Below are positions 2,566-37,865 of a DNA stretch of 55,865 nucleotides, piece after piece (within the stretch, counting starts at the first letter, position 1; each line of letters starts with the position of its first letter). The position numbers were made by a program, and so were the translations under genes. The notes under the pieces were generated by a model. The model searched no databases, was not told where the DNA came from, and was given only the letters and a program-made list of their open reading frames with translations. The stretch covers positions 1 to 55,865 of the forward strand of contig JAAURB010000024.1 of assembly GCA_012033335.1 (NCBI GenBank). The letters are read 5' to 3'. Source of the stretch: Oscillatoriales cyanobacterium RM2_1_1 (lineage in GTDB: Bacteria; Cyanobacteriota; Cyanobacteriia; Cyanobacteriales; Microcoleaceae).

Positions 2566-3308
2566 ATGTTGCAGATTATGACTGCCTTGATTTCCTCGGG
2601 AATAATTGTTCTGATTTCAATACCAGGATCGATATCCCTCTCCTCAACCTTTAAACCCCAATTAATTCCAGACCCCCAGGTAGATCTGGAAAATAACCTC
2701 TCCTCCAGCAATCAGCCTGATCAAGGGTCAACTTCAACTTCCTACACCCAACTGGAAACCTATCTCCAACAGAAAAATTGGCAAGCTGCTGATCAAGCAA
2801 CCCGAACTGTAGTCAATCGTTGGGTTTATCCGGATCAGGATTGGTTTGCCCCCCTGATTTTAATCGGGTTGTCTGTGCTGAAGTGCAAACCCTGGATCAA
2901 CTGTGGACAACGTACAGCGACGGTAAATTTGGGTTTTCGGCCCAGGTTCAGCAGTGGCAGCAAGCGATCGCTGGATTTCCCAATGACCTTCGCACCGCCG
3001 TTGACACCTATGGCCAATTAGTGGGTTGGACTCGCCGGGAACCATTGAAGGATCAGGAGTTTCAAGCCCTCTGGTGGGCCTCAGATTGGCTCACCGAACC
3101 AGAACTAACCTACGACCTGAAAACCTCTGAGGGCCACCTTCCCTGGGGAGGAATCTCAACGGAGATTGTGGCGGATTTGGCTGATCAACATGACTCGGGG
3201 GGATGTGGAAGCTGTGGTACAGATGCGGTTTATCTCCAGGCAGAACGCCTCTACACCTACCTGCCGGGGTTTTACGCCCAGATTGCCCAGTGCCTATCGA
3301 AATCTTAG
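2566..3308 (+). pseudogene. GUN4-like domain protein, frameshifted
   Basis: The first frame (2566 on) gives a hydrophobic N-terminus (ALISSGIIVLISIPG, signal or anchor), a Ser/Pro-rich linker and then YTQLETYLQQKNWQAADQAT, the start of a GUN4 core. The second frame takes over near 2850 and reads DFNRVVCAEVQTLDQLWTTY, KFGFSAQ, VGWTRREP and LTYDLKTSEGHLPWGGI, the rest of the GUN4 domain. One extra base in the C run at 2849-2854 would join them into about 247 residues. GUN4 proteins bind porphyrins and activate Mg-chelatase; anchored GUN4-like paralogues have unclear roles. The tail holds GGCGSCG. Either a recent pseudogene or a sequencing indel. Confidence 0.75.
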
Positions 3309-31749: not shown

Positions 31750-32502
31750 TCAAACAGCCAGGAAGCGCTGAATTACCTCCTGGCTTAACTCCTGAGTCGA
31801 ACCGGATGCAACAATCCCACCCTTTTGCATCGCATAGTAGCGATCCGCCTGTCGGACAAAATGCAGATGTTGCTCCACTAGTAGCACGGAGATGCCTGCC
31901 TTCTCAATGATCCGACGCACAGCCGCCTCAATTTCCAGGACAATGGAGGGCTGAATTCCTTCCGTGGGTTCATCCAATAACAGAAATTGAGGTTGCCCCA
32001 TCAAAGCCCGGGCGATCGCCAATTGTTGTTGTTGACCGCCGCTCAAATCACCCCCCATGCGAGACAACATAGTCTTCAAAACAGGGAACAATTCAAAGAT
32101 AGTATCGGGGATTTCCTTGACTCGTTTTTGGGTCTTAGGACGAGCTTCTAATCCCAGCAATAAGTTTTCTTTTACCGTGAGCCGGGGAATGATCTCTCGC
32201 CCCTGAGGAACATAGCCAATCCCCATCCTCGCCCGTTGATCAGGGGACAGGGAATTGATGGTTTGTCCTGTAAATTGCACCGTTCCAAGACGAGGATTTA
32301 ACAGTCCGATCACTGTTTTTAATAAGGTTGTTTTACCAACACCATTGCGGCCAATTAAACAGACCATTTGCCCCGGAAAAACATTCAGGTCTACATCCCT
32401 TAAAATATGGCTTTCACCATAGTAAACATTCAGATCCGATACCTGTAACATGGGAACGAGTGAAGGATCTTTTGGTAAGTTTAAAGTTTGAATGGCAGTC
32501 AT
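31750..32502 (-). CDS. urtE: urea ABC transporter ATP-binding protein UrtE
   Basis: 250 residues. ABC ATPase with Walker A GRNGVGKTT, Q-loop region, signature LSGGQQQQLAIARALM, Walker B FLLLDEP and the switch His in LLVEQHL. Most similar to LivF/UrtE-type ATPases. The annotated frame begins MTAIQTL; the inner Met 18 (MLQVSDLNVYYGES) is the usual UrtE start and may be correct (32451). Last gene of the urtABCDE order on the minus strand. A 280-base gap to urtD holds a family B repeat. Confidence 0.92.
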   Translation of the reverse strand: MTAIQTLNLPKDPSLVPMLQVSDLNVYYGESHILRDVDLNVFPGQMVCLIGRNGVGKTTLLKTVIGLLNPRLGTVQFTGQTINSLSPDQRARMGIGYVPQGREIIPRLTVKENLLLGLEARPKTQKRVKEIPDTIFELFPVLKTMLSRMGGDLSGGQQQQLAIARALMGQPQFLLLDEPTEGIQPSIVLEIEAAVRRIIEKAGISVLLVEQHLHFVRQADRYYAMQKGGIVASGSTQELSQEVIQRFLAV

Positions 32503-32782: not shown

Positions 32783-33979
32783 TTAATGGCTCTGCAAAGG
32801 GTTACTTACCTCTGCTTCAATTTGCTCTACTCTGTCAACTGGCAAATCCAGTAACCCAACTAACTGATCATAGGCTTGCTTTTCCTCTGGATTGATCAAA
32901 GACTCCCCAGGGTAGGTGTTGAACTGAACGACAGTGTAAGCCAGCTTTAAAATTTGCTCTCGTTCCTCAACGGTTTCAACCTGATTAATGGAGGATTTAA
33001 TTGAGCCTCCCTGGTAGATATAGTTGAGTAATTCCTGTTGAAGATGCTGCTGTTGATCAGGGTTTTTAGAAAACCAGGTACTCAGACGGGTTGCAATCAA
33101 TTGGGCTTCAGATTCAGAAAGACTATCATCGGCCCAGGCGATCGCCGCCATAATTCGCAATAACTTCATCTGATGGGGGGTAATGGAAGGGGCTTCCCCT
33201 AGGTAAACTTCAATCACCCTTGGATCACTTTGGACTTCATCCATTGTGCCCTCATAGAGTACTGAACCCTGGTGTAAAACTGTGACCTTGCGGGCGATTT
33301 GTCGAACAAACTCCATGTCGTGTTCAATCACAATAATTGAATGACTTTTCGCCAGGGCGAGGAGTAAATTTCCGACATTTTCTGTTTCTTCATCGGTGAG
33401 TCCGGCAACCGGTTCATCTACTAAGAGTAAATCAGGAGATTGGGCAACCAACATACCAATTTCTAGACGTTGCTTTTCCCCATGGGAGAGCAAAGCGGCC
33501 TTTAAATCAGCCTTGGCATCCAATCCAATAGTTTCCAGTAAGCCCGCGACATTGCGTTTCTCCCCCGCAGAGGCATGACCAAATAAGGTGCTGAACACCC
33601 CTTTGTGACGATTACAAACCAGATCCAAATTCTCTCGAACACTCAAATTTAAGTAAACCCTGGGGGTTTGAAATTTGCGACCAATGCCCAATTGTACAAT
33701 CCGATGTTCCGGGATGCCCCGAAGATTGCGGCCTTGAAATCGCACCTGACCTTCCGTGGGCTGAACTTTGCCCGTAATCACGTCTAAAAACGTAGTTTTC
33801 CCCGCTCCATTTGGCCCAATAATCACTCGCAATTCTCCAGCATCCATACTGAAATTGAGGTGATTCAGGGCCTTGAATCCATCAAAGCTCACAGTTAAAT
33901 CATTGATTTCTAGAATCTTTTGATCCGGCTTTTGACTACTATTCTGACTGGTGCTTTGATCCATCTGATTCCCAATCAT
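32783..33979 (-). CDS. urtD: urea ABC transporter ATPase UrtD fused to a TerB-like domain
   Basis: 398 residues, about 140 more than a minimal LivG/UrtD ATPase. Residues 20-265 are the ABC domain: Walker A GPNGAGKTT, signature LLSHGEKQRLEIGML, Walker B LLLVDEPVAGL and switch His IVIEHDMEF. From about 268 the chain continues LLRIMAAIAWADDSLSESE, STWFSKNPDQQ and LKLAYTVVQFNTYPGE, which reads like a TerB/tellurite-resistance-like helical domain with its acidic turn (WADDSLSESE). The frame is continuous, with no internal stop or start. The domain could regulate or couple the ATPase; I do not know how common it is. Confidence 0.9.
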   Translation of the reverse strand: MIGNQMDQSTSQNSSQKPDQKILEINDLTVSFDGFKALNHLNFSMDAGELRVIIGPNGAGKTTFLDVITGKVQPTEGQVRFQGRNLRGIPEHRIVQLGIGRKFQTPRVYLNLSVRENLDLVCNRHKGVFSTLFGHASAGEKRNVAGLLETIGLDAKADLKAALLSHGEKQRLEIGMLVAQSPDLLLVDEPVAGLTDEETENVGNLLLALAKSHSIIVIEHDMEFVRQIARKVTVLHQGSVLYEGTMDEVQSDPRVIEVYLGEAPSITPHQMKLLRIMAAIAWADDSLSESEAQLIATRLSTWFSKNPDQQQHLQQELLNYIYQGGSIKSSINQVETVEEREQILKLAYTVVQFNTYPGESLINPEEKQAYDQLVGLLDLPVDRVEQIEAEVSNPLQSH

Positions 33980-34018: not shown

Positions 34019-35230
34019 CTACAAATCTCCTTGTTGGTTACTGGGTTCGGGCGGTTGAGTCAGTAACGTTCTTTGCTCTAAATCGGATTGCTCCCGTTGA
34101 ACTTCCGGGTCTGCCTCAATGCTGGGGTAATTAACCTGTTGGGGCTTACCGAGTAGCGATCGCAACCCATCCAATCCAGAACGCCTAAACCAACCGACAA
34201 TCCCATCGGGGATCGCCGTTACTACCAATAGAAATAATGCCCCTTGAAAAAATAACCAGATCTCAGGAAATTGTTCACTCAATAAGGTTCGAGCCAGCCG
34301 TACAATCAGAGTACCTATAATCGCCCCGATCAAGGTTCCTCGACCTCCTACAGCCACCCAGATCACCATCTCAATTGAGAACGCCACCTCCATAAAACTT
34401 GGGGTGATAATCCCAGTTTGAACGGTATAAAGTGCCCCTGAAATTCCAGCGATCGCCCCCGAAACCGCAAAAACAAACACCTTAAATCCTGTGGGATTGT
34501 ATCCAGAAAACCGCACCCGCATTTCATCATCTCGAATCGCCACTAATAGACGACCAAAGCGCCCACTTACCAACCAACGACAGAGCAAGTAAGTCAAGAT
34601 CAATAGCAGAATCGTCAGCTCATAAAATAGAATCTGGGCTGGATTTGAACCGACCCTCAGGCCAAAGAACATTTCAGTATCGGTTTTTAGGCCATTAGTG
34701 CCGTTGATTAATTGCTGTTGACCGTTGAAGAAATTGAAGAAAACCAGCAACGCCGCCTGGGTGAGAATCGAGAAATAAACCCCCTTGATTCGATTGCGAA
34801 AAACCAGATACCCCAACAGTCCAGCAATAATTCCAGGGATTAAGACAATTGCAATTAACGTAAATGGAAAAGAATGAAAGGGTTCCCAAAACCAGGGAAG
34901 TTTCTCAACACCATAGAGGGTAAAAAATTCTGGTAGTTCCCCTTCCGGAAGCTGCAATTTCAAGTGCATCGCTAGGGCATATCCCCCTAAGGCAAAGAAA
35001 ATTCCATGGCCTAGGCTGAGCAACCCAGTGTAGCCCCAGATTAAATCGATTCCCAGGGCCACAATACACAGGGCCAGAAACCGCCCAATCAATTTCAACC
35101 GGAATGCTGGCAGCAAAAAAGGGAGAACAGCCGCTAGAAAAATAACAATTCCCAAGCCAATTCCCGCCTCAATCAACCCCTGCTGTTTCTGTTGCTTGCG
35201 TCTGAGTGAACCTGTAGTTTCTATCATCAT
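34019..35230 (-). CDS. urtC: urea ABC transporter permease UrtC
   Basis: 403 residues, a LivM-type permease with about ten membrane helices. Diagnostic stretches are DLIWGYTGLLSLGHGIFFALGG near residue 65, FLNRI-type loops, SGYNPTGFKVFVFAVSGA and WVAVGGRGTLIGAIIGT. The C-terminus is hydrophilic and Gln/Pro-rich. It lies between urtB and urtD on the minus strand, with short gaps of 21 and 39 bases, which supports a single operon. Two Met codons adjoin at the start. Confidence 0.94.
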   Translation of the reverse strand: MMIETTGSLRRKQQKQQGLIEAGIGLGIVIFLAAVLPFLLPAFRLKLIGRFLALCIVALGIDLIWGYTGLLSLGHGIFFALGGYALAMHLKLQLPEGELPEFFTLYGVEKLPWFWEPFHSFPFTLIAIVLIPGIIAGLLGYLVFRNRIKGVYFSILTQAALLVFFNFFNGQQQLINGTNGLKTDTEMFFGLRVGSNPAQILFYELTILLLILTYLLCRWLVSGRFGRLLVAIRDDEMRVRFSGYNPTGFKVFVFAVSGAIAGISGALYTVQTGIITPSFMEVAFSIEMVIWVAVGGRGTLIGAIIGTLIVRLARTLLSEQFPEIWLFFQGALFLLVVTAIPDGIVGWFRRSGLDGLRSLLGKPQQVNYPSIEADPEVQREQSDLEQRTLLTQPPEPSNQQGDL

Positions 35231-35251: not shown

Positions 35252-36411
35252 CTATAACTCAGCCGTCCGACCTTTTTGAGCAAAAATTCCTGAAGGCTTA
35301 ACCTGTAGAAAAATGATAATCAGGACAAATACCAGAACCTTAGCCATACTAGTGGTGGCAAAAAAGTTAAACAGATTCACCAGGGGTTCCAGGACTTCAA
35401 AAGGCGATAAAATCAGGGCTAGAGTACCTGAACCAATCAGATAGCTAACCGTACCAATGGCCATCGCGGCAATTACTGTCCCCAGTAAGTTTCCGACTCC
35501 TCCCACCACCACGACCATAAAAGTATCGACAATATAGTTTTGACCCGTATTGGGGCCAACAGAACCCAATAGAGTAATAGCACAGCCCGCAATCCCCGCC
35601 AACCCTGAACCGATAGCAAAGGTCAATGCGTCAACCTTAGCAGTTGGAATCCCTAAACAAGCACTCATCTGGCGATTCTGAGTGACGGATCGAATCTTCA
35701 GACCCCAATCTGACCGATTCAAAAACCAGTAGGTTCCTAGCAGACATAAAACAGTCAAAACAATAATAAAGATTCGGGAGTAAGGAAACTGTAACGTGCC
35801 TAACTGAAACCCACCTCGCAGCCATTCTGGAGGGGTAACATCAACATTTCTAGCCCCGAACCAGGGCTTGGCTAAAGCACTATTGGCCCTAGCGATCAGG
35901 GTTGCTGCGGTTACAGAAATGCCGCTGGCTAGTAAAAAGATTAACCCCAAAACCAGGACTTGATGGTTTGGGTGGAGTGGCGTTTGAGGAAGAACAAACC
36001 GCCGAAAAACAACAAACAAAATAGCAAAATTCCAATTACCAAAACTCCGCTAACGCTGCGAACAAATTGTTGCAAAATCAAACTAACTCCCCAGGTCGCT
36101 AACAGGGTTTCCAGAGGGCGGCCATAGAGATAGCGAATCACCCCCCGTTCTAGGGCTAAACCGACTAATGCAGCCACAATGAATGCCATCGGCAGGGCAA
36201 AGAAAATGTAGCTATTAAACCAAAATTCCCCTAGGGGTTTGAACAGGTTTTGAACTACAAAAGTGGTGTAGGCTCCTAACATCATTAGCTCCCCATGAGC
36301 TAGATTAATCACCCCCATTAAACCAAAGACAATCGCTAAACCCAGAGCGGCAATTAGTAGCACCGAGCCAATACTAATTCCATTAAAAATAGCACTAAGA
36401 AGTTCTGGCAT
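35252..36411 (-). pseudogene. urtB: urea ABC transporter permease UrtB, frameshifted
   Basis: First half from 36411: MPELLSAIFNGISIGSVLLI, GVINLAHGELMMLGAY, RYLYGRPLETLLATWGVSLI and FFGGLFFLKRHS, the LivH/UrtB pattern. The frame then hits a stop just after KSWFWG near 35942. The other frame takes over with LIFLLASGISVTAATLIA and continues through PWFGARNVDVTPPEWLRGG and GVGNLLGTVIAAMAIG to 35252. One extra G in the run at 35944-35947 (CCCC on the plus strand) joins them into about 386 residues. As both halves are conserved, this is either a sequencing error or a very recent lesion; if real, urea uptake would be lost. Confidence 0.9.
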
Positions 36412-36527: not shown

Positions 36528-37865
36528 CTAAGCTCCTTCAAACTTAAATTTTTCTCCCTTGGCAGGATCAGACCAATCGCAGGCAAATCCCTTGGTGGCT
36601 GGGACGTATTGATTCCAGGGGACTGGCTCAACTGGCCCATCCGTTGATGAGACAATATCGAACAAGCCATCATCTCTGACCTGACCGATCCTCACCGTCT
36701 TAGAAATATGATGATTGTTGTTCATCGTAACCTGCCCTTCCGGAGCGGCGAAGGTTTGACCCAGGGCAGCAGTTCTCACCGCCTCTAAGTCATCTGCAGT
36801 GCCCGCTTTTTCGACGGCTTGCTTCCAGAGATATACCATGATGTAGGCGGCCTCCATCGGGTCATTCGTCACCCGATCCTCGCCGTACTCCGCTTTGAAG
36901 TCGGCAACCCATTTGGTATTTTCTGGAGAATCTACGGTTTGGAAGTAGTTCCAGGCGGCGTAGTGACCGATCAAGAACTCTTTACCAATTTGCCGCACCT
37001 CTTCTTCGGCAATACTCACAGACATGACTGGATAAAGATCTGGGGTCAATCCTGCCCCCTGCATTTGCTTAAAGAAGGCGGCATTGCTATCTCCATTCAA
37101 GCTATTGAAGATCACTCCCCCATTCGGCAGGGCTTGCTTGATCTTGGTAATAATCGGAGTCACCTCAGTATTGCCTAGGGGCAGATAGTCTTCCCCTACG
37201 GTGGTTCCGCCTTTGGCGGCTAACTGTTCCTTGATGATGGTGTTGGCGGTGCGGGGAAATACGTAATCCGAACCCACCAGGAAAAATTCTTTGCCTTTAT
37301 TTTCCAGGAGCCAGTCTACCGCCGGTTCGATTTGTTGGTTGGGGGCAGCGCCCGTGTAGAAGATATTTTTAGAACATTCCTGACCTTCATACTGGACTGG
37401 ATACCACAGCATGTGATTCTTCGACTCGAACACGTCCTTTACCGCTTTCCGACTTGCCGATGTCCAGCACCCAAAAACAGTGACTACCTTGTCCTGATCG
37501 ATTAATTTCTCAGCTTTTTCCGCAAAAGTTGGCCAATCAGAAGCCCCATCCTCAACCACGGCTTCAATCTGCTTTCCTAGAACCCCACCGGCAGCGTTGA
37601 TTTCCTTAATGGCTAGCTTCTCGGCATCCACCACCGTGGTTTCACTAATGGCCATGGTGCCACTGAGGGAGTGAAGGATGCCAACTTTGATCGTGTCACC
37701 ACTCGAAGTCCCTGGACTTTCTGCGGTTCCCGCCGGACTTTCCGTTGGCGTGGTTTGATCAGTTGTTTGTGAAGGTGGACTGGTACAGGCTTTTAGCAGC
37801 ACACTACTTCCCAAGGCAGCAGAACTGTAAATTAAAAATCTCCGTCTTCCCAAACCTTTGCTCAT
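36528..37865 (-). CDS. urtA: urea ABC transporter substrate-binding protein UrtA
   Basis: 445 residues. The N-terminus has a twin-arginine-like run ([16 protein letters not shown]) and a lipobox LLKAC with Cys 27, so it is probably a lipoprotein, possibly exported by Tat. A Thr/Ser/Pro-rich linker (28-60) precedes a LivJ-type binding domain beginning [19 protein letters not shown] and containing [20 protein letters not shown] and [13 protein letters not shown], the UrtA/AmiC-like pocket region. It captures urea for UrtBCDE. First gene of the operon, 116 bases from urtB, behind an NtcA-type promoter. Confidence 0.95.

Follow-up and report, generated by a model that had tools for sequence, protein, structure and literature searches.

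The urtD gene in the 55,865-nucleotide stretch analysed here (contig JAAURB010000024.1 of Oscillatoriales cyanobacterium RM2_1_1; in the following, the window) continues beyond the point where a urea-transporter ATPase normally stops, which raises the question of what the additional part is, how it came to be there and what it may do for urea import. A preliminary description had proposed one continuous frame encoding the UrtD ATPase followed by a C-terminal helical, TerB-like domain. Indeed, the fusion is a single open frame of 398 amino acids at 32783-33979; the plus-strand reading of these positions has stops throughout and was rejected, which places the gene on the minus strand, a point on which the preliminary description was silent. 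Its ATPase part (residues 22-262; 33194-33916, minus strand) was identified as UrtD by TIGR03411 with 371.2 bits (curated cut-off: 304.1), and Pfam placed PF00005 at residues 38-192 and the branched-chain C-terminal motif PF12399 at residues 243-263. Up to residue 262 and in its urt gene cluster the protein thus resembles other UrtDs of the TIGR03411 family, but about 135 more residues, beginning directly past the normal UrtD end and in the same frame, form a helical domain (residues about 263-398; 32786-33193, minus strand).

The surrounding genes, all on the minus strand between 31750 and 37865, follow each other in the order urtA (substrate-binding protein, 36528-37865; TIGR03407, 604 bits), urtB (permease, 35252-36411), urtC (permease, 34019-35230; TIGR03408, 447 bits), urtD and urtE (31750-32502; TIGR03410, 331.5 bits), the last of which encodes the second ATPase, a 250-aa protein without the extension. 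The urtB gene, recognized from its frames and profile matches, is divided into two overlapping frames (35252-36019 and 35941-36411) with the break near 36.0 kb; in L041, the intact homologue compared with it, a single frame encodes 386 aa. The assembly therefore has a urea transporter without an intact UrtB. The urease alpha gene of the window's genome (G000) is likewise split into two frames. Both splits may be assembly errors or decay, so the window's own urea transporter may not work. As a separate observation, the frame change in urease alpha falls at almost the same position, about residues 143-148, in G000:C75:56354-58059 (L204) and in G215:C29:23428-25124 (L205); these two genomes, of different families, are the ones with such a split among the 56 searched, and the coincidence may reflect chance, error or a site-specific cause.

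To which family does the added part belong? Searched alone, it matched TerB (PF05099) with E 8.7e-5 and 23.2 bits, below the Pfam gathering cut-off of 24.4 (21.2 bits for the window's protein in the genome-wide scan), and DUF533 (PF04391) was equally close with E 8.1e-5 and 22.7 bits, below its cut-off of 29.6. TerB was matched at E ≤ 0.01 by 28 of the 31 family members, the window's included, and DUF533 by 17. The hercynine-metabolism family of NCBIfam, which appeared in 1 of the 31 members with E 8e-4, was rejected as weak, and for a 128-aa stretch of the standalone relative L071 Pfam returned nothing at E ≤ 0.001. AlphaFold2 predicted helices at residues 268-281, 289-303, 307-321, 327-331, 337-353, 364-377 and 381-392 in the full-length protein (best model pLDDT 81, five models 63 to 81), and again seven helices when the domain was modelled alone (best pLDDT 80, five models 70 to 80). 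The acidic turn AWADDSLSESE noticed at the outset is present in this helical part (residues 281-291; 33107-33139, minus strand) and contains D284 and E291; such a D...E turn is presumably the TerB motif.

A profile search of the PDB returned 2h5n (PG1108) first with E 0.038, and VIA-align 2 with the domain also placed 2h5n first (Z 8.4, rmsd 3.4, 112 aligned residues, 11% identity), a Z score that helical bundles can reach by common arrangement; the runner-up had Z 6.0 over 69 residues. We take 2h5n to be a TerB-family structure. The single domain gave no match in a phmmer search of the PDB, and Foldseek returned 286 weak matches to it, ferritins first and none at E ≤ 0.001; when the full-length model was the query, ABC ATPases took up the list of structural matches, which was thus uninformative on the added domain. 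From the sub-threshold TerB score, the two matches to 2h5n and the Foldseek result, we conclude that the extension is TerB-like rather than a member of PF05099. It shares with that family a sequence match under the Pfam cut-off and with 2h5n the best fold match, but it lies among urt instead of ter genes. The resemblance to TerB claimed in the preliminary description is thus borne out by most members of the family, although the window's own domain stays short of the cut-off.

For the distribution of this architecture, we drew 386 genomes from the cyanobacterial phylum and called UrtD at E ≤ 1e-70. UrtD was found in 141 genomes, in 140 of them above the curated cut-off, and the domain was in frame with it in 16 genomes with nine family codes (G000, the window's, G058, G076, G083, G093, G109, G119, G131, G133, G135, G145, G170, G187, G211, G286 and G360). 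As had been assumed from the sequence alone, the extension is not shared by most UrtDs: the protein lacks it in 125 of the 141 genomes, and transport can therefore do without it. We examined 44 loci from these 125 genomes, 40 of them plus 4 chosen for long frames. The 40 plain UrtDs stop 1-23 residues past the ATPase match and the long-frame picks L047, L048 and L050 stop 6-9 residues past it, with the fourth pick (L049) left out of the count. A second scan, of named contig records, yielded 15 fused and 65 standalone forms among the best 80 of 163 relatives, where 15/80 is no fair rate since the one pattern used favours certain sequences. Of the 15 fused loci besides the window's, 13 have a further urt gene close by, and none was found in the examined stretch for L038 and L039. 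All 31 fused domains (16 from the sampled genomes and 15 from named records) have distinct sequences, and this together with their recurrence shows that the fusion is no read-through artefact of one assembly. These results confirmed that UrtD with a C-terminal TerB-like domain is real and recurrent, uncommon among UrtDs and not unique to the window's genome.

Within the window's own family, the window's genome is the only one of 61 with a fused UrtD; a domain match at E ≤ 1e-30 was obtained in 56 of the 61. Outside the Cyanobacteria, the survey covered plasmid records; among 184 with a UrtD match, one covers at least 80% of the query, in a search that a strongly diverged extension would escape; this lone match (H1) was rejected, being a 253-aa urtD that runs on into urtE. 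A fused urtD was also present on L130 (JAAUTE010000283.1), a 4.7-kb metagenome contig labelled Chloroflexaceae; it sits among the cyanobacterial sequences in the tree, and the contig is probably mis-binned.

The nearest kin of the fused domain is a standalone cyanobacterial protein of about 160 aa, 38-45% identical to the window's domain (15 rows), which unlike the fused form has a proline-rich N-terminus and a C-terminal tail. Among exactly 65 standalone loci, many of them on short contigs, 41 have a CRP-like gene upstream, 33 an M61 peptidase gene and 28 an inositol-phosphatase gene, one representative of each having been named by Pfam. We note here a recurrent cyanobacterial cluster of a CRP-like regulator, an M61 PDZ peptidase and the small TerB-like protein, often with the inositol-phosphatase-like gene upstream. 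The closest relative inside the window's genome is such a standalone protein on G000:C29, a contig on which the CRP-like, M61 and TerB-like genes lie together (L051:1318-4496). The M61 gene occurs in 14 of the 16 fused genomes and a standalone copy in 3 of them (G000, G135 and G170); since these three have both forms, the idea of mutually exclusive forms was abandoned. A standalone match above 160 bits was found in 29 of the 386 genomes, a count that excludes matches of only 20-110 bits, most of them from family code f25, and 27 of the 29 have UrtD (Fisher p 5e-11, ignoring kinship). With kinship uncontrolled and the weak matches excluded, we do not build on this association.

Did the standalone protein join UrtD once or several times? 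In a tree built from 47 of the 89 standalone domains together with every one of the 31 fused domains, a single branch separates the two forms (support 95/85, 93% of 200 bootstrap trees), to be read with caution given its few columns and the long branches among fused rows. The 74 ATPase parts compared (31 from fused and 43 from plain UrtDs) gave a tree in which the two kinds are intermixed, with 16 changes, at least 7 of them forced by well-supported branches. Constraint tests rejected a clade of all fused UrtDs (AU p 8.35e-9) and one of the eight own-family UrtDs (p 0.0066) but did not reject genus g9, with two fused and two plain members, as a clade (p 0.32). Since the fused domains group together but the fused UrtDs do not, there was probably, as far as the two trees can tell, a single old fusion, followed by repeated loss with urt gene transfer or by recombination at the 3' end of the gene. 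Several independent fusions, with the single grouping as a long-branch effect, would also fit the rejected clade of fused UrtDs and the long branches of many fused domains. We consider them unlikely, because the two forms are separated by one branch, because the spacing from the ATPase end is identical and the C-terminal tail absent in 16 of 16 fused alignment rows, and because the distances between fused proteins computed from the domain and from the ATPase part correlate (Spearman 0.39; none of 2000 permutations reached this value). These comparisons support, without proving, a single origin of the fused domain, which would then be an example of an add-on that apparently arose once and was later lost or transferred on many occasions. 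The domain evolves far faster than the part to which it is attached: mean pairwise identity is 0.44 for the domain vs. 0.80 for the ATPase.

What the domain does for UrtD can be approached from its position, its conservation and what is known of the urea transporter of Synechocystis PCC 6803. Our preferred reading, to which we assign a probability of roughly 0.55, is that the C-terminal TerB-like copy is a lineage-specific, dispensable docking or regulatory module. The domain would lie on the cytosolic face of UrtBCDE and there bind a partner protein and thereby tune or localize urea import, while PII would act in parallel on UrtE. Its position makes a regulatory role plausible, by analogy with the cyanobacterial nitrate transporter, whose NrtC is likewise an ABC ATPase that serves nitrogen import and carries an additional domain at its C-terminus. 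That domain is NrtA-like and unrelated to TerB. It has been cited as taking part in ammonium inhibition (PMC6603209), and would thus be a precedent for regulation by a C-terminal add-on on this side of a nitrogen importer. The recurrence of the fusion, its usual urt context, its low dN/dS, the single-branch grouping of the domains and the helical fold in the models speak for a docking or regulatory module; the fast evolution of the domain, the two loci without a nearby urt gene (L038 and L039) and a two-hybrid result from Synechocystis given below speak against it.

Synechocystis UrtD (Sll0764) is listed at 41.19 kDa in PMC6603209, and the published urtD primers translate into TSKILEIQ for the N-terminal and VDEDGD followed by a stop for the C-terminal end, both of which are the ends of L039. 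Read from MTSK, L039 has 373 aa and a mass of 41.27 kDa; that of L038 is 41.31 kDa, and the domains of both are 37% identical to the window's. Since primers and mass fit L039, Sll0764 very likely has the same fused architecture as the window's protein. According to PMC6603209, tagged PII strongly enriched both UrtD and UrtE on urea, and PII contacted UrtE in the two-hybrid assay but gave no signal with UrtD. An extra domain on UrtD is not mentioned in the passages of PMC6603209 and PMC6737895 considered here, and a literature search by title and abstract start returned nothing on a TerB-like domain of UrtD or a role for it. The domain would be an overlooked part of a transporter already studied in Synechocystis PCC 6803, a model laboratory strain, where PII control and urease co-purification have been reported and the UrtD side is unexplained. 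If a role in docking or regulation holds, it would be a possible second control point of urea import and would for the first time place one branch of the TerB-like proteins in a functional setting.

Two narrower readings are special cases of such a docking or regulatory module. The domain might tether urease, or the accessory proteins of urease, to the transporter and so channel urea, for which we see a slim chance. Besides the enrichment of UrtD and UrtE on urea, PII tagged at its N-terminus co-purified the urease complex in Synechocystis, whose UrtD matches the fused architecture, and the authors suggest possible channelling (PMC6603209); however, the bait was PII instead of UrtD, and PII tagged at its C-terminus did not enrich urease. 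All 56 genomes tested have a urease alpha gene, both the 16 with fused and the 40 with plain UrtD, so that its presence does not discriminate. Similarly tentative is the idea of a dedicated second control input, in which the domain would recruit urease or a signalling protein to UrtD, with UrtE as the docking site of PII, and import would be physically coupled to hydrolysis in some cyanobacteria.

The other special case is a metal or calcium sensor, in which binding of a divalent ion at the acidic turns would gate the ATPase, for instance to match urea uptake to nickel or calcium status. TerB itself binds metal. Among the 78 domains compared (31 fused and 47 standalone), D284 is kept in all 78 and E366, a glutamate of the second half, in 76 (47/47 standalone, 29/31 fused). 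E291 is kept in 70, with Glu in 47 of 47 standalone but in only 23 of 31 fused domains; the other 8 fused copies have Gln, and the stretch ahead of E366 is shortened in 12 of the 31. The loosening of E291 in the fused branch speaks against strict metal binding, and the metal sensing suggested at first is weakened to a rather improbable reading, even though its aspartate is invariant.

A near-neutral passenger, tolerated and freely lost while doing little, would suit the many UrtDs without the domain and the intermixed ATPase tree, but is also quite improbable in view of the nine family codes, the conserved core residues and the domain's dN/dS, which was 0.044-0.168 in 8 of 9 chosen close pairs (the ninth was not computable). 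The ATPase part had 0.000-0.056 in all nine pairs, and in some wider pairs dS exceeded 1.5, which makes those ratios rough. Judged from the close pairs, the domain is under purifying selection.

Two minor observations concern other genes of the window. The protein encoded at 1081-1779, to which the same fold type had been ascribed, has a TerB match over the cut-off (39.6 bits), joined to Mo-nitro_C (PF06967), the C-terminus of the Mo-dependent nitrogenase. The protein is only distantly similar to the UrtD add-on family, with which no more than 35 columns align. Finally, the overlapping frames 2566-3021 and 2820-3308 (together 2566-3308), judged by eye, are apparently one gene with a frame change.
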